Shown one piece after another: positions 2,685 through 54,847 of a DNA stretch of 64,000 nt. A model generated the notes under the pieces. It was given only the letters and a program-made list of their open reading frames with translations, made no database searches and was not told the DNA's origin. The position numbers were made by a program, and so were the translations under genes. The first letter of the stretch is position 1; each line of letters opens with the position of its first letter. The stretch is taken from the NCBI RefSeq assembly GCF_029581575.1, contig NZ_CP089975.1:806001-870000 (forward strand), in the 5' to 3' direction. The DNA comes from Moraxella nasibovis (GTDB lineage: Bacteria; Pseudomonadota; Gammaproteobacteria; Pseudomonadales; Moraxellaceae).

Positions 2685-5600
2685 ATGAATGATCAAACCA
2701 ATAAAACCAATCGTCCAAGCAGCCAAAATCACTCACAGGAAGTGAGTGTGTCGCTGCGCCATTTGGATCAGTCGCCAAAGACTGACCAAGATGCCAAGCC
2801 TAACACGGATGATGGCTCGCCCAATCAAACACCTAATCAAACGCCCAATCACTCGCCAAAAGGCAATCATCCTAAGTGGCTGGTGTATCTGCTGCGTGCG
2901 GTGATGGTGTTTTTGGTGGCGATGGCGCTCATGCTGGTGCTGCTGTTTTATGCGATGGGAACGCAAGGCGGCACGAAGTTTTTATTGGAGAAAATCGCCC
3001 TTGAAACAGGTACGAGCCTAAAATACGCAGAGGGCAATCTTCGAGATGGCGTGTGGGTGTCTGAGGTAAAAATCGCTCAGGGCGAGAATATTGAAATTCG
3101 CATTGACCGAGCCTATGTGCAGCTTGGCTGGCGAGCGGTGCTGGCACGCCAAGTGCATCTGGTGGACACGCAGATCAACCAAGTGGAGGTCATCAATAAA
3201 AAACCGCCCACAGGCGAGCCTTTTGATTATGCCACCATCGATTTGCCTGTAACGATCAAGCTTGAAAATACTCATGCTAAGCAGATCGTTTATCGTCAGG
3301 CGACCAAAGAGCCAGTCCATCTGCACGACATCCACATCAAAGATGGGCTGTGGTCAGGCACAAGCGTCACCCTAAACGGTGCAAATATCCGCTACAATGA
3401 TGCTGTGACGGTCAGTAATATTGACGGCAGTATTGACTTGACGGGTGATTATCCACTAGATGTCAAGGCAGATGTGGCAGTGTCTGCCATCACAAAAGTG
3501 TATTTTGGGACGCTGCACACGCACGCCACAGGCACACTAAAACGCACGGTAGGCACGATTCGTAGCAAATATAACGACCACGACATCAAGGGAGAGTTTG
3601 TCGCACAAGGCTTAGATGACAATTCGCCATTTAGCGCACGGCTGGATTTTGATAAAGTAATCCTACCTTATGCTGCCGAGCAAAACATCACCCTAAGCGA
3701 TGGCACCATCACCGCAGATGGCGTGGTGTCAAACATTGAGCTGCGCATCAACAGCGATTTGACCGCCAAAGACATTCCTTCTGGACGCTACCGTGGGCGT
3801 GGCGTGGTGCGTGATGGCGGCATGGACATTCCTTTTTTGCGTGCAGACACACCAAGTGGCACTTTGTTTGCTAGGGGTGAGATGTCTTGGGCGGACGAAT
3901 TTGAGCTGCAAGCGACTCTAAGTGGCGATGGCTATCGGGTGCGTGAGGCGCTGCCGATAGAATATCGTGATTATGAGGCGTATTTACCGCAGACTTTGAC
4001 GGGTGATTTGAGTGTTCATTACTATTATTTGGATGGCAATAACGACACTCGTTTTGAGTTTGATCTCAATCAAAAAGATGGTGAGATGATCAGCGCCACG
4101 CTTGCCCAGTCCCAAGATGACCCAGATGCCCCTTGGCGTATCGATGCCAGCTGGCGCAATCTGATTCGCACCAATGTGCCAAATCTGGACCGTATTCATT
4201 CTACACATGGCACAGCGAGCATTCGCCTTGAAGAGGGTCGTACTTATGTCGATGCACAAGGACACATCCAGTCTTTGTCTGCGGCACCTGCTGGCGACTA
4301 TGTCATCAAGGCAAATATTGAAAAAGGCGAGCGCATTCATCTGACAGACTTTAAGTATGATGGCATGATGGGCGACTTGTCAGGCACAGGGCGCATTGAC
4401 TTGGCGACCATGCAGCAGCCTTTGACTTGGCAATTTGATTTAACTACAAACAAACTTTACCCAAACGCTTATTTTGATGTGCCAAACAAAACGCCGTTTC
4501 AGACGGTGTCAGGGCGTATTTTGGCGACAGGCAGAATGCGCAGCGGCACAGATGATACAGATGTGCATGACATTGACATCAAAGATGCTGATCTAAACGC
4601 CACTTTGACGGCGGGACAAAGCGCCGCCATCAAGGGGCTTGGGCGTGCCAGTGTGCGCCTGCATTCGGGCAATGTGCGCCATTTTGATGCATCATTTGAC
4701 GGTAGGGCGACGCAGTCTTTTGCACCTGATGTGGGCGAGGTGCTGCTTGGTGTTGATGTGTCTGGCGACATGAATGCCATCAATATCCAAAGACTCACCG
4801 CAGACACCGACTCCGGCAAGCTGAATGCGACAGGCAAGCTTGATCTGAGCGATGGCGTTGCTTGGGACATCAAGGCAAGGCTTGATGAAGTTGATACCAA
4901 ACAATTTGCCGCAGACAACGCCAATCTCATCGCTGTGATTACAGGTGATTTGACGACAAGTGGGCGCTATCGCAACGACACGCTGTCTGATGTGACGGCG
5001 GTGTTTGATGGCCGTGTGGCGCATGATAAGCTGCCAGAGGGGCATCTGGCGCTGGATGTCAAAGGCAGTGGTCAAAAATATCACATCAATCATCTGAATT
5101 ATCAAGGTGCGGCAGGCAAGCTTCACGCCCAAGGCTTTGTGGCGCTTTCTGATGGTGTGGCATGGGATATGGCGGCGGACATGAGTGGCTTTAATGTCGG
5201 TGCGTTCATCGATGATGTGCCTAGCGACTTGACGGGCGATGTCAAGGTGCGGGGTCATTGGCAAAAAAATACTCAGCTTGTCACGGTTGACCGCCTAAAT
5301 CTGCACGGCACGCTGCGCAATCAGCCCTTTGATGCCAAAGGGTCTTTGGTGGCGGATTTGGCGCTGCCTGATGATTTGAGTGCTTATTTTGCACAGCTAA
5401 AAACGCACACACCAAGCAATGTCGATGAGCTTTTGGCTTTGCGTGGGCAGATTGATGCGAGCGCTCGCCGCACCCAAAACATCATCAGACGGCTTGATGC
5501 TGACAACCTGACCCTAAGACTGGGTGACAATCATCTGCGCATTGATGGCGACAAATCGGAGCTTACCGCCAGTGTCATGGTTACAGATTTAAGTCAGATC

Positions 5601-7775
5601 ATGCCAAGTGCGACTGGCGCCATCAAAGGCGGCGTGATTTTAATGGATGATGGCAATTCACTACCGACCTTGTACATTGACATGGCGGCAGGCGGTGTAC
5701 GCACGGCAAATATGGTGGCGCAAGAGGCTCGCATCTTGGGTAAGATTGTCAATCTGGGCAATGCTGAGAGTCAAATGCTCATCGATGTCAAAGACATCAT
5801 CGCCATGGGGCGGGTGGTGAAGGCGGCGAGGCTTGATTTTCAAGGAACAGAACAAAAGCACACGCTGGCTTTAAGCAGCGAATCCACCGAAAATCAGGTC
5901 AATGCGAAGGTTGAGGGCAGTCTGGATCGAGCGTCTGGGCGTTATCGTGGGGTGCTAAGTGATGCGGCACTTCGCTCGAAATTTGGGCTGTTGACCCAGG
6001 CGCAGCCGACCGAATTTAGCTATGGTCTGAATGATGGCGCTGTGGCGGTGGCGGCGCACTGCTGGCAAAGCACCAGCGCCAATCAGACCGATGCAGGTAC
6101 CATCTGCCTGCAAGACACCTTGCGCTATGCCCAAAACTTAGGTCATGTCAATCTGGTGGTGCAAAATCTAGATACCGCAGTGTTTACGGCGGTATTGCCA
6201 AAAGACATTCGCTGGCAGTCCACCCTAAACGGACACATCAAAGCCGCTTGGCAACAAAGCCAAAAGCCCACCATCAATGCAGTCTTGTATTCTGATAATG
6301 GTCGGATCGGTCTGGATCAAAATGGCGCATATGTACAAATGCCTTATGAGCGTGTCTCTGTCATCGCCCAAAGCGTCAGTAGTGGCTTAAAGCTGCGTGC
6401 TGATGTCGCAGGCTCGGTGGCTCGTGGTCATGCCGATGTGGTGTTAGATCCGTATGGCGAGGGTAAACCGATTGATGGCACTTTGCAGATTGATGACATC
6501 AATTTGGCGGTCATTCGACCATTTTTGTCCAATTTTCAGACCTTGGCGGGCAATGCAAAAGTGGCAGGGCGTGTGGGCGGCACCTTGCAGCGACCATTGT
6601 TTTATGGCGATGCCAGTTTGAATAATGGGGCGCTTGCACTTGTGGGTGTGCCTTTGAATCTAAATAACATCAACGCCGACATCACGGTTGATGGTACCAA
6701 TGCCAAGCTTGATGGTGAATTCATGGCAGGGGCTGGGGCAGGCGAGATTGGCGGTGAATTTGACTGGTCGCAAGCACTGTGGGCGCGCCTACGCTTGTCG
6801 GGTGAAAATCTTGACATCAGTCATCCGCCGATGTTGGTGGCGCAAATGACGCCTGACATTGAGGTGCTTGTCAAGCCTTTTGAACAATATGTGGACATTC
6901 AAGGTGTGGTGTCTGTGCCAAGCGCCACCATTCGTCCGCCAGAATCCACCGCCAACATCACCACCGAGTCGCCTGATGTGACCGTGCTTGATCGCCGAGC
7001 CATTGGCAACATCGATCAAGTGCTTAGAGTGGTGCAGCCTTGGAGTATCAATGCCAGCATCGGTCTGGACTTGGGCGATGAGGTGATGTTCCGTGGGCTT
7101 GGGGCGGAGCTGCCCTTGGCTGGGGCGCTGCATTTGACGCAGCAAGGTCAAGGCAGTATGCGAGCAAAAGGTGTGATTCAGGTCGCTGAGCGTACGACGG
7201 TTGATGGCATCGGGCAGAATTTAGAGCTAAACTATGCACAAATTCGCTTTAATGGCGACCTGTTAAACCCCCGCCTATCCATCGAAGGCGAAAAGCAAAT
7301 CGAAGGTCGTACGGTGGGTGTGCGTGTCAAAGGCACGGTAAACAATCCTGAGATCACCGTCTTTAATGATGCAGGTCTCACCGAACAACAAGCGATGAAT
7401 GCACTTGTCACAGGGCGCATCAGTGAGGCGGCAGACAGTCAGATCTCTGAGCAGGGTTTCCGTTCGCAAGTGACCAACAATCTGGCGGCGGCAGGTCTAA
7501 ACTTGGGCTTTGCAGGCACTCGCAACATCACCAATCAGATCGGCGAGGCATTTGGTCTTGAAAGTCTTACCATCGACGCTTCGGGCAATTCGGACGACAC
7601 CAGTGTGAGCGTGACAGGCTACATCAGCCCAGATTTATACATTCGCTATGGCGTGGGGCTGTTCAATGCCGAATCCACGCTCTCCATGCGCTATCAGCTG
7701 ACCCGCCGCATTTATGTGGAGGCGGCACGAGCCACAGAAAATACGGTGGACATGATTTATCGCTGGAAGTTTTAA
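2685..7775 (+). CDS. tamB: TamB, inner-membrane-anchored translocation and assembly protein
   Basis: TamB spans the periplasm as a long beta-rich tube and works with TamA. The 1696-residue protein starts with about 60 polar, Asn/Pro/Gln-rich residues, followed by one transmembrane anchor (about residues 64-90, WLVYLLRAVMVFLVAMALML). A very long repetitive beta-strand region with many D-G-x-x turns follows. The C-terminal TamB/DUF490 domain ends in a barrel-like tail (YIRYGVGLFNAESTLSMRY...). The cytoplasmic polar tail before the anchor is longer than in E. coli TamB (1259 aa). The start at 2685 is the only ATG ahead of the anchor that gives an orderly N-terminus, but its ribosome site is weak. 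Only 172 bases separate it from tamA, so the two are probably co-transcribed. Confidence 0.93.
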   Translation: MNDQTNKTNRPSSQNHSQEVSVSLRHLDQSPKTDQDAKPNTDDGSPNQTPNQTPNHSPKGNHPKWLVYLLRAVMVFLVAMALMLVLLFYAMGTQGGTKFLLEKIALETGTSLKYAEGNLRDGVWVSEVKIAQGENIEIRIDRAYVQLGWRAVLARQVHLVDTQINQVEVINKKPPTGEPFDYATIDLPVTIKLENTHAKQIVYRQATKEPVHLHDIHIKDGLWSGTSVTLNGANIRYNDAVTVSNIDGSIDLTGDYPLDVKADVAVSAITKVYFGTLHTHATGTLKRTVGTIRSKYNDHDIKGEFVAQGLDDNSPFSARLDFDKVILPYAAEQNITLSDGTITADGVVSNIELRINSDLTAKDIPSGRYRGRGVVRDGGMDIPFLRADTPSGTLFARGEMSWADEFELQATLSGDGYRVREALPIEYRDYEAYLPQTLTGDLSVHYYYLDGNNDTRFEFDLNQKDGEMISATLAQSQDDPDAPWRIDASWRNLIRTNVPNLDRIHSTHGTASIRLEEGRTYVDAQGHIQSLSAAPAGDYVIKANIEKGERIHLTDFKYDGMMGDLSGTGRIDLATMQQPLTWQFDLTTNKLYPNAYFDVPNKTPFQTVSGRILATGRMRSGTDDTDVHDIDIKDADLNATLTAGQSAAIKGLGRASVRLHSGNVRHFDASFDGRATQSFAPDVGEVLLGVDVSGDMNAINIQRLTADTDSGKLNATGKLDLSDGVAWDIKARLDEVDTKQFAADNANLIAVITGDLTTSGRYRNDTLSDVTAVFDGRVAHDKLPEGHLALDVKGSGQKYHINHLNYQGAAGKLHAQGFVALSDGVAWDMAADMSGFNVGAFIDDVPSDLTGDVKVRGHWQKNTQLVTVDRLNLHGTLRNQPFDAKGSLVADLALPDDLSAYFAQLKTHTPSNVDELLALRGQIDASARRTQNIIRRLDADNLTLRLGDNHLRIDGDKSELTASVMVTDLSQIMPSATGAIKGGVILMDDGNSLPTLYIDMAAGGVRTANMVAQEARILGKIVNLGNAESQMLIDVKDIIAMGRVVKAARLDFQGTEQKHTLALSSESTENQVNAKVEGSLDRASGRYRGVLSDAALRSKFGLLTQAQPTEFSYGLNDGAVAVAAHCWQSTSANQTDAGTICLQDTLRYAQNLGHVNLVVQNLDTAVFTAVLPKDIRWQSTLNGHIKAAWQQSQKPTINAVLYSDNGRIGLDQNGAYVQMPYERVSVIAQSVSSGLKLRADVAGSVARGHADVVLDPYGEGKPIDGTLQIDDINLAVIRPFLSNFQTLAGNAKVAGRVGGTLQRPLFYGDASLNNGALALVGVPLNLNNINADITVDGTNAKLDGEFMAGAGAGEIGGEFDWSQALWARLRLSGENLDISHPPMLVAQMTPDIEVLVKPFEQYVDIQGVVSVPSATIRPPESTANITTESPDVTVLDRRAIGNIDQVLRVVQPWSINASIGLDLGDEVMFRGLGAELPLAGALHLTQQGQGSMRAKGVIQVAERTTVDGIGQNLELNYAQIRFNGDLLNPRLSIEGEKQIEGRTVGVRVKGTVNNPEITVFNDAGLTEQQAMNALVTGRISEAADSQISEQGFRSQVTNNLAAAGLNLGFAGTRNITNQIGEAFGLESLTIDASGNSDDTSVSVTGYISPDLYIRYGVGLFNAESTLSMRYQLTRRIYVEAARATENTVDMIYRWKF

Positions 7776-49459: not shown

Positions 49460-49559
49460 GGTTGGGTCGGCATGGTGGGCTGGTTGAACGAATGTAAAAT
49501 CCAACATTTTAAATGTAACTTATTGAATTTGTTGGGTTTCGTTGCACTCAACCCAACCT
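49460..49559. repeat. Dispersed palindromic repeat, left part, interrupted by IS110
   Basis: Runs from GGTTGGGTCGGCATGGTGGG through TTGTTGGGTTTCGTTGCACT to CAACCCAACCT and stops where the insertion begins. Its missing end (ACGGGCT) is found at 50801 on the other side of the element. Confidence 0.75.
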
Positions 49560-49767
49560 TGTATCTCACCACCAAGACTAGCTATCTTGGTGATGGCATG
49601 GTAGATTATACCATCACCCTAAGTTACTTGGTAGTTTCTACCCAACCTGAGTACTTTGATGCTGTCTCGTAGATTAAACCCAAGTAGCTTTCTTATCATC
49701 GTACAATCTGAATGGTATCCAAGCGCTTGATTGATTTTCAATCATGACGCTGAATGAACAAGGCTAG
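49560..49767 (+). ncRNA. Predicted IS110 bridge RNA
   Basis: The noncoding left end can be folded as a bridge RNA. (1) A 5' hairpin: CACCAAGA (49570-49577) with TCTTGGTG (49585-49592). (2) A target loop closed by TACTTGG (49625-49631) with CCAAGTA (49680-49686). It holds ACCCAACCT (49640-49648), identical to the left target at 49551-49559, and CTCGTAG (49666-49672), which pairs with the right target CTACGGG at 50799-50805 with one G-U pair. (3) A donor loop with ATGGTATC (49712-49719), identical to the element's right end at 50792-50799, and ACAAG (49758-49762), complementary to CTTGT at the left end (49558-49562). These two flank a hairpin, TGATTG-ATTTT-CAATCA. The exact RNA ends are unknown. 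Confidence 0.75.
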
Positions 49768-50775
49768 ATGACAATGACTTATTATGTTGGTATTGATGTT
49801 AGCAAGCACAAGCTGGATGTGGCTTGGCTTAAAGAGTTAAGTACAATGAAAGTCAAAACCAAAGTCTTTAATAATCACTTTGATGACTTTGAACACATCA
49901 TTCATTGGCTTAAAACCAATCTTGGTGCAAGTGTCAGCTTTAACGACATTCATCTTATTATGGAAGCCACAGGGGTATATCACGAACCTTTGGCGTATTA
50001 TTTACACGATTTAGGCTTTAAAGTCTCTATCATCAATCCTGCCTTTGTCAAACACTATGCGGACAGTTTAGGCGTAAGACAAAAGACAGATAAAAAAGAC
50101 AGTATTGTCCTTGCCAGATATGGCAGAGCCACCCACCCTGATGCTTGGATTGCCCCAAGTATTGAAGCTCGTCATTTAAAGTCTTTGCTTTCTCGTCTTG
50201 ATGCTCTAAATGAAGACTTACAGCGAGAAGAAAACCGCAAAGAAAAAGCAGAAGTGGCAGACACAACCCCCATTGTTAAACAATCCATTGACGAGATGAT
50301 TGTGGCATTAAAATTGGCAATCAGCAAATTAAACGATGACATTGACACTCATATCAACAACCACCCCAAACTTAAAGAAGAGCAAACACTCTTACAAAGC
50401 ATCAAAGGAGTGGGACAGGTGGTGTCAAGACAAATGCTTAGTTTGTTTAATACCAAACAATTTAACAATGCCAAACAAGTCTCTGCTTTTTTAGGGTTGA
50501 TTCCCAAACAACAAGAATCAGGATTGTTTAAAGGCAGATCAAGACTTGCCAAAACAGGCAATGCTCAATTAAGAGCTAAGCTGTATATGGCAGCAGTCGT
50601 TGCCACCAAGTACAATCCAGACATTAAAGACCAATACGAACGCTTACAACAAAATGGCAAATGCAAAATGCAAGCTTTATGTGCTTGTATGCGTAAATTG
50701 GTGCAAATCTGCTTTGGTGTGATCAAACACCAAACTCCCTACACCCCACAAGTTAGGATAGATAATATGGCTTGA
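49768..50775 (+). CDS. IS110-family recombinase (transposase)
   Basis: A 335-residue DEDD recombinase. The N-terminal RuvC-like domain has Asp in YYVGIDVSKHKLDVAW, Glu in LIMEATGVYHEPL and the Asp pair in GVRQKTDKKDSIVLARYGRA. A coiled coil (about residues 150-210) links to the C-terminal transposase_20 domain: LLQSIKGVGQVVSRQMLSLF, VSAFLGLIPKQQESG and RLAKTGNAQLRAKLYMAAVV, which includes the serine/threonine region used for catalysis. It appears complete. The Moraxella pilin invertase Piv belongs to the same superfamily, but there is no pilin gene here and the element has IS-type boundaries, so I call it a transposase. Confidence 0.95.
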   Translation: MTMTYYVGIDVSKHKLDVAWLKELSTMKVKTKVFNNHFDDFEHIIHWLKTNLGASVSFNDIHLIMEATGVYHEPLAYYLHDLGFKVSIINPAFVKHYADSLGVRQKTDKKDSIVLARYGRATHPDAWIAPSIEARHLKSLLSRLDALNEDLQREENRKEKAEVADTTPIVKQSIDEMIVALKLAISKLNDDIDTHINNHPKLKEEQTLLQSIKGVGQVVSRQMLSLFNTKQFNNAKQVSAFLGLIPKQQESGLFKGRSRLAKTGNAQLRAKLYMAAVVATKYNPDIKDQYERLQQNGKCKMQALCACMRKLVQICFGVIKHQTPYTPQVRIDNMA

Positions 50776-50800
50776 CAAGGGGTGGGGAGAGATGGTATCT

Positions 50801-50850
50801 ACGGGCTAAAATGTTGGGTTTTGTGCCTCAACCTAATCTACGGGCTGTTA
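50801..50850. repeat. Dispersed palindromic repeat, right part, with a second partial copy
   Basis: ACGGGCT continues the repeat cut at 49559. It is followed by AATGTTGGGTTTTGTGCCTC, then AACCTAATCTACGGGCT, a second, shorter copy resembling 11093-11125. Confidence 0.65.
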
Positions 50851-51238: not shown

Positions 51239-51330
51239 TAGGTTGGGTTGAACGCATGTAAAACCCAACATTTTTAGATGTAAACCATTGATTTTGTTGG
51301 GTTTCGCAAGCTCAACCCAACCTACGGGCT
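51239..51330. repeat. Intact dispersed palindromic repeat copy
   Basis: Starts TAGGTTGGGTTGAACGCATG and ends CGCAAGCTCAACCCAACCTA. Terminal arms (GGTTGGGTTGA / TCAACCCAACC) are perfect inverted repeats around a diverged centre that itself contains AAACCCAACA and TGTTGGGTTT. It shows the uninterrupted form of the IS110 target. Confidence 0.8.
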
Positions 51331-54478: not shown

Positions 54479-54554
54479 TGGCTCCCCAACCTGGGCTCGA
54501 ACCAGGGACACACGGATTAACAGTCCGATGCTCTACCGACTGAGCTATTGGGGA
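54479..54554 (-). tRNA. tRNA-Asn (GTT)
   Basis: Full 76-nt cloverleaf on the minus strand: acceptor TCCCCAA with TTGGGGA, D-arm AGCTCAGTCGGTAGAGC, anticodon loop CTGTTAA giving GTT, T-arm CCTGGTTCGAGCCCAGG, encoded GCCA end. Confidence 0.97.
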
Positions 54555-54612: not shown

Positions 54613-54657
54613 TAAAAATTTTAAAAAAATCTTAACTTTTTTAAAAAACATAAAAAA

Positions 54658-54842
54658 ACCAAAGTGCCGCTGCAAAGGGGTGACCATGAACCGTGAAGTT
54701 CAAGGCGGAGCTGCATCACTATTTATTACGGCTTCCTGATACATCACAAGGATGCAGGCCTGCTCAACAAAATAGTAGGAATGCGCCCCTAAGATAAGAT
54801 TATCGGCTCAGGAATACGCTTTGCTGGCGAACACTTCAGTGG
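54658..54842 (-). ncRNA. ssrS: 6S RNA
   Basis: Binds sigma-70 RNA polymerase in stationary phase. The minus-strand sequence shares ordered blocks with E. coli 6S: GTGTTCGCCAGC, the conserved CCTGAGCCGATA, GAAGCCGTAA, then CGCCTTGAACTTCACGGTTC ATGG and GCAGCGGC. The ends pair (CCA..AAGTG with CACTT..TGG) to close the long hairpin around the central bubble. A good promoter sits just upstream. It lies between tRNA-Asn and folE, not next to the usual ygfA homologue. Confidence 0.9.
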
Positions 54843-54847
54843 GGCTT

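Follow-up and report, generated by a model that had tools for sequence, protein, structure and literature searches.

The window, a stretch of 64,000 nucleotides of the Moraxella nasibovis genome (contig NZ_CP089975.1, positions 806,001 to 870,000), contains an insertion sequence of the IS110 group, which consists of a non-coding leader, a recombinase gene and a short right end (Table 1). We are highly confident that the leader encodes a bridge RNA of the IS621 type. This reading is carried by the anatomy of the leader, the identity of its guide segments, the fit between guides and flanks across related elements, the match of the leader to a covariance model and the nine repeats that are occupied in the genome.

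Element and insertion sites

The recombinase combines the PF01548 domain, with the DEDD residues D10, E66, D108 and D111, and the PF02371 domain with the catalytic serine S251, which by our own mapping is aligned to S241 of IS621. All five residues are invariant in an alignment of eight sequences. Among solved structures, the sequence search found two relatives, IS621 (8wt6, E 4.1e-54) and ISCro4 (9t56). These domains are those of the IS110 group, and as in this group the non-coding ends are unequal, with a long left end (208 bp) and a short right end (23 bp). In IS1111 elements the end lengths are reversed and there are subterminal inverted repeats of 7-17 bp. The 25 longest inverted pairs, out of 76, include no subterminal inverted repeat that joins both ends of the element.

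The element is present in nine copies in the genome, which are 100% identical across 1239 bp. All nine have the left flank CCCAACCT and the right flank CTAC, with the insertion point CCCAACCT^AC. Past CTAC the right flanks differ, reading CTACGG in six copies, CTACAA in two and CTACGC in one, and the sequence beyond the repeat is unlike among the nine copies (45 left and 30 right bases compared). CT is found at both junctions and the unoccupied repeat reads AACCTACGGG, thus there is no longer target duplication. A BLASTN search of the element against plasmids gave partial matches only, in two records (13% and 9% of the query with 68% and 73% identity).

Table 1. Features of the element, its target and its surroundings (window positions, unless marked as genome positions)
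Feature	Position	Strand	Description and evidence
Target, left part	49531..49559	+	Hairpin GTTGGGTT (49531-49538) / AACCCAAC (49550-49557), then core CT (49558-49559)
IS110-group element	49560..50798	+	1239 bp, CT core on either side
Left end, predicted bridge-RNA leader	49560..49767	+	208 bp; covariance model match 49560-49787
5' stem-loop	49570..49592	+	CACCAAGA/TCTTGGTG; sequence, inverted arms
Second small hairpin	49598-49614	+	ATGGTA/TACCAT; inverted arms
Target-binding loop	49621..49690	+	Outer stem 49621-49631/49680-49690, left guide 49640-49648, inner hairpin 49650-49653/49660-49663, right guide 49666-49672
Donor-binding loop	49712..49762	+	Left guide 49712-49719, inner hairpin 49722-49751, right guide 49758-49762
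Recombinase	49768..50775	+	335 aa, open reading frame intact; PF01548 E 1.2e-22, PF02371 E 4.7e-22 (Transposase_20)
Right end	50772..50798	+	TTGACA (50772-50777), TAT (50796-50798)
Target, right part	50799..50806	+	Core CT, then ACGGGC
Unoccupied copy of target	51318..51328	+	CAACCTACGGG; sequence comparison
Further unoccupied target copy	55989	+	
Further unoccupied target copy	54246	-	
Y1_Tnp (RAYT-like) gene	917338-917634 (genome)		About 225 bp from a CAACCCAACCTAC site
Y1_Tnp (RAYT-like) gene	1434865-1435161 (genome)		About 225 bp from a CAACCCAACCTAC site
6S RNA	54652-54845	-	Ordinary
tRNA	54482-54554	-	Ordinary

Guide segments of the leader

Four guide segments had been claimed in the leader by the original prediction, which was made from the sequence alone, and all four were found to be correct to the base. 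The left target guide ACCCAACCT equals the left flank of the element (49551-49559), and the right target guide CTCGTAG pairs with CTACGGG of the right flank (50799-50805) with one G-U pair. The left donor guide ATGGTATC equals the right end of the element together with the first core base (50792-50799), and the right donor guide ACAAG is complementary to CTTGT at the left junction (49558-49562). The target site that matches the leader guides is CAACCCAACCTACGGG. The target-binding loop comes before the donor-binding loop, and each of them is built of a left guide, a hairpin and a right guide.

We shuffled the leader 5000 times with its dinucleotide composition kept. A target-guide pair with 15 out of 15 matches at the spacing of a bridge RNA was found in none of these shuffles and one with at least 14 matches in seven. 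The 8-nt left donor guide was found in 26 shuffles, the target pair and the donor guide together in none.

Guides and flanks of related elements

A single-protein search of the contigs of named genomes found no relative. An alignment-based search of these contigs brought up 393 candidates, and we retained the best 80. Two sets of elements were compared. For the first set, ends were searched for in 61 sequences, including one of the nine own copies and two of the 28 copies read in G011, a genome of the same genus, and no ends were found in nine sequences. Out of the remaining 52 elements, 48 were used and gave 33 distinct target loops; L118, L125 and L099 were dropped due to untrusted ends and L139 for lack of a donor-guide match. 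The second set comprises 46 of the 80 loci with 43 distinct loops, after the removal of 30 loci lacking ends, of L224, which lacks a donor guide, and of three truncated loci. Eight loops of the second set recur in the first, six of them exactly and two almost exactly, and the relatedness among the elements stays in the permutation statistics.

The guides fit the flanks of their own elements. In the first set the own-flank fit was 13.00 out of 15, compared to a mean of 10.47 and a maximum of 11.36 when the flanks were permuted, and none of 20000 permutations was as high. The guides of the window element fit 15 out of 15, which was equalled by none of the 32 other flanks. For the second set the own-flank fit was 12.77 and the permuted maximum 11.12, again with no permutation out of 20000 reaching the observed value. 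The target-loop segments change together with the flanks across related elements, as expected from the original prediction, and the donor guides are fixed. The result that would refute this prediction, an unchanged target loop at unlike targets, did not occur in the own genome, where nine identical loops are found at nine copies of one target. L092 has the same target loop as L150, a Psychrobacter record, and L144 the same as L225 from Acinetobacter variabilis, which points to Moraxellaceae as the family and agrees with the genus Moraxella.

Two genomes of the same genus illustrate this further. G012 has two copies with 81% protein identity, whose leader reads CGCACCCT and which are inserted at CGCACCCT^ACGCA and CACACCCT^ACGCA, the latter with one mismatch. 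In G011 there are 34 matches by our own row count with 55% protein identity, 28 of which were read. All 28 have a single form of the leader, with GTTCGCCCT and GCTCAG, and all 28 are inserted at TTCGCCCT^GAGC, which continues as GAGCC in four cases and as GAGCT in the rest. The donor guides TGAATGGTATC and AACAAGG are common to the elements of the window, G012 and G011, and so are the ends TGTAT and ATGGTAT. As read from the genomic sequences, this is natural redirection within the genus, where the target guides of relatives have changed to match other targets and the donor guides have stayed constant.

Fold of the leader

The original prediction described the target-binding loop as closed by TACTTGG/CCAAGTA. 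This stem is present, but it is longer than described and forms an outer stem of 11 bp (AAGTTACTTGG/CCAAGTAGCTT). A covariance model for bridge RNAs had been proposed as a check, and we trained one on 20 related leaders, with the window and G012 excluded. It finds the leader of the window with 96.6 bits and an E-value of 4e-20, and the only other match listed for the 64 kb has 7.6 bits. For 10 of the 13 consensus pairs a compensatory change was found in at least one of the 20 sequences, and the inner hairpin of the target-binding loop covaries across these relatives. A 25-nt stretch in the region of the 5' stem-loop is an insertion relative to the model, and the unconstrained minimum free energy fold favours a different pairing at this stem-loop.

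The RNAalifold consensus from a MAFFT alignment missed the outer stems, therefore we swapped stem arms between elements. Across the 33 loops the outer stem of the target-binding loop is element-specific, with a score of 25.0 for own arms and a maximum of 17.8 for permuted arms. The signal is weaker for the outer stem of the donor-binding loop (15.3 for own arms, permuted maximum 14.2). Segments of the window's donor-binding loop are resembled by segments in related leaders, and a constrained fold gives this loop a short ATCT/AGAT helix. The closing helix of the leader may extend into the recombinase gene by a few bases.

Several observations weigh against a guiding RNA in this leader. Some guides fit their own flanks poorly. 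In the first set, 31 of the 32 other flanks fit the guides of L097 at least as well as its own, and this is true of 18 flanks for L092, 11 for L124, nine for L098 and eight for L091. In the second set, with 42 other flanks, the corresponding counts are 42 for L194, whose left flank is missing, 40 for L193, 38 for L170, 33 for L188, which has Ns in its flank, 31 for L166, 15 for L150, 14 for L200, 12 for L197 and 10 for L173. Furthermore, the guides are identical in all nine copies of the own genome, therefore there is no covariation inside the genome. The outer stem of the donor-binding loop is weak in the window and its top-scoring pairing is implausible. Moreover, the unconstrained fold of the leader is only moderately better than that of shuffles (z -2.89) and pairs some of the guide bases, and no Rfam family matched the leader at the gathering threshold.

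The target repeat

The claim that the guides are specific for a repeat of the host is supported by the perfect fit of the target guides to their own flanks and by the location of all nine copies in the same repeat. An exact search of the genome found 35 unoccupied CAACCCAACCTAC sites and none of the reversed control sequence. This dispersed repeat has the potential to fold into a hairpin of 8 bp, which ends directly before CTAC. Its foot-stem score of 20 was reached in none of 100 shuffles, and its fold energy was equalled or beaten in nine of 200. We likened the repeat to repetitive extragenic palindromic (REP) sequences because two Y1_Tnp genes lie near repeat sites; one copy of the element, L004 (915916-917154), is located 184 bp from one of them. 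The two genes suggest that the host repeat is a REP. As background, RAYTs recognise a GTAG foot.

We also surveyed the flanks of related elements for hairpin feet, keeping 66 of 76 flanks after short, N-bearing and duplicate ones were dropped. Out of these 66 distinct left flanks, 43 have CTAC on the right. A left flank with a terminal hairpin (equalled by at most five of 100 shuffles) is found in 23 of the 43 CTAC elements versus two of the 23 others, a contrast with a Mann-Whitney p of 1e-5 that is uncorrected for kinship. The pattern looks as though this clade often targeted the feet of REP hairpins.

Junction promoter and start codon

In a circle with abutted ends, the predicted junction of right end, CT core and left end (RE-CT-LE) would read TTGACA-18-TATCTT, which is sigma-70-like. 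Its promoter consensus score is 10 out of 12, compared to 6 for the intact left end and 9 for the intact right end. Judged by consensus match only, 25 of 33 elements have a junction score above that of the intact left end and none has one below it; relative to the intact right end, the junction score is above in 22 and below in one. Separately, we observed that the -35 box of this predicted promoter overlaps the stop codon of the recombinase.

In members with short leaders the closing helix of the donor-binding loop might reach or abut the recombinase start codon, so that one transcript could serve as guide or as message, not as both. We consider this unlikely. The best-scoring 3' arm contains the start codon in 10 of the 27 loops with a called start. 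Seven of the ten share TCATCTT/AAGATGA, and the others are L126 (CATCTCG/CGAGATG), IS621 and L147; in L116 the arm touches the start codon by one base. The start region of IS621 is less open than in 25 of 25 shuffles, and a literature search found no paper that ties the IS621 bridge RNA to the start codon. The loop of the window element is not one of these ten. A strong sequestration of its start codon was tested for and is unsupported, as its start region is predicted to be relatively open, at or above the value of 24 of 25 controls in which the upstream sequence was shuffled.

Alternative explanations and proposed mechanism

The element could be an old and inactive passenger, which descends from bridge-RNA elements and no longer works. 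We regard this as very improbable, given that the nine copies are identical throughout, the reading frame is open, the DEDD and serine residues are kept and the guides fit completely. Still less probable is a leader that is mainly a regulatory 5' untranslated region limiting recombinase translation, as proposed for ISPpu9, with the protein alone selecting the target and the guide matches as by-products. The right donor guide of the window does overlap AAGG, a likely Shine-Dalgarno sequence; against this stand the guide fit, which tracks the own flanks of each element in two sets, and the start region of the window element, which is predicted to be open. Least probable of all is a spread of the copies by homologous recombination between element-bearing repeats, which would make the uniform targets uninformative on guidance and agrees with the identity of all copies and guides, but not with the differing sequence directly outside the repeat or with the relatives that carry other, matching guides in other targets.

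For a bridge-RNA element we propose the following mechanism. Excision by the recombinase would yield a circle in which the two ends of the element abut, and the promoter made by this junction would transcribe the leader. The leader RNA would fold into the 5' hairpins, the target-binding loop and the donor-binding loop and form a ribonucleoprotein in an active element. Base pairing in each loop would join the left guide to the bottom strand and the right guide to the top strand, with all guides meeting at the CT core. Since ACCCAACCT/CTACGGG in the target loop spells the foot of the REP-like repeat of the host, this is where the circle would insert, without a longer target duplication.

Comparison with known systems

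IS621 of Escherichia coli also has a DEDD/Ser recombinase, with 38% identity to that of the window. Further common features of IS621 (PMC11208160, PMC11208158) are a leader-borne RNA with the target loop before the donor loop, a CT core and, as published, a promoter formed at the circle junction, which resembles the junction predicted here. The IS621 copy in CP061233.1 shows the same loop order, and its insertion point, too, is a REP hairpin foot with CTAC. Its left guide matches 7 of 8 positions, that of the window 8 of 8, and the step from left to right target guide is 23 nt in this copy and 25 nt in the window. IS621 differs in its target guides and partly in its donor guide, whereas the window element has an extra 5' hairpin and a longer leader (208 vs 191 nt). 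By our own mapping on the numbering in PMC11208158, the 177-nt RNA of IS621 ends one base before the ATG.

In ISEc21 and ISMch6 an upstream non-coding RNA, called seekRNA, sets the target as well. These elements belong to another IS110 cluster, with transposases of 345-385 aa and short seekRNA forms, and natural redirection by changed guide bases is already reported for ISMch6 (PMC11187229). ISPpu9, ISPpu10, ISPa11 and ISRm19 are IS110-family elements in host REP sequences, though in other hosts and other REP sequences, according to a genome survey from 2006, which also reports REP targeting for IS621 and others (PMC1525189). Since both redirection and REP targeting are already reported, the window element is most probably a further bridge-RNA IS110 element of the IS621 type.

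Besides these elements, we noted a Piv-like pilin invertase gene with 33% identity to the window recombinase. Its leader lies at 2951-3066 of L230 (G005) and is the same in L231 (G002). It has one bridge-like loop, with GGTATCCT and AAGCTAG 23 nt on, that fits in 14 of 15 positions a sequence found in two inverted copies, one at 4041 (+) and the other, inside a pilin-like gene, at 6214 (-). This fit was matched by three of 1000 mononucleotide shuffles, with six candidate cores tried. In L231 one such site was seen within 6000 of the 10458 bases, and the four Piv-like genes compared are 98-100% identical. The sequences suggest that an RNA with a single loop guides Piv; in the parts of the literature available to the search, no paper states this.

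The Moraxella elements form a natural series of bridge RNAs in one genus, with guides that are readable straight from the genomic sequence. Guide-target pairs of this kind, taken from nature, lend themselves to tests of specificity rules. The tendency of the CTAC relatives to lie at hairpin feet fits a repeated tuning of guides to the REP repeats of their hosts.
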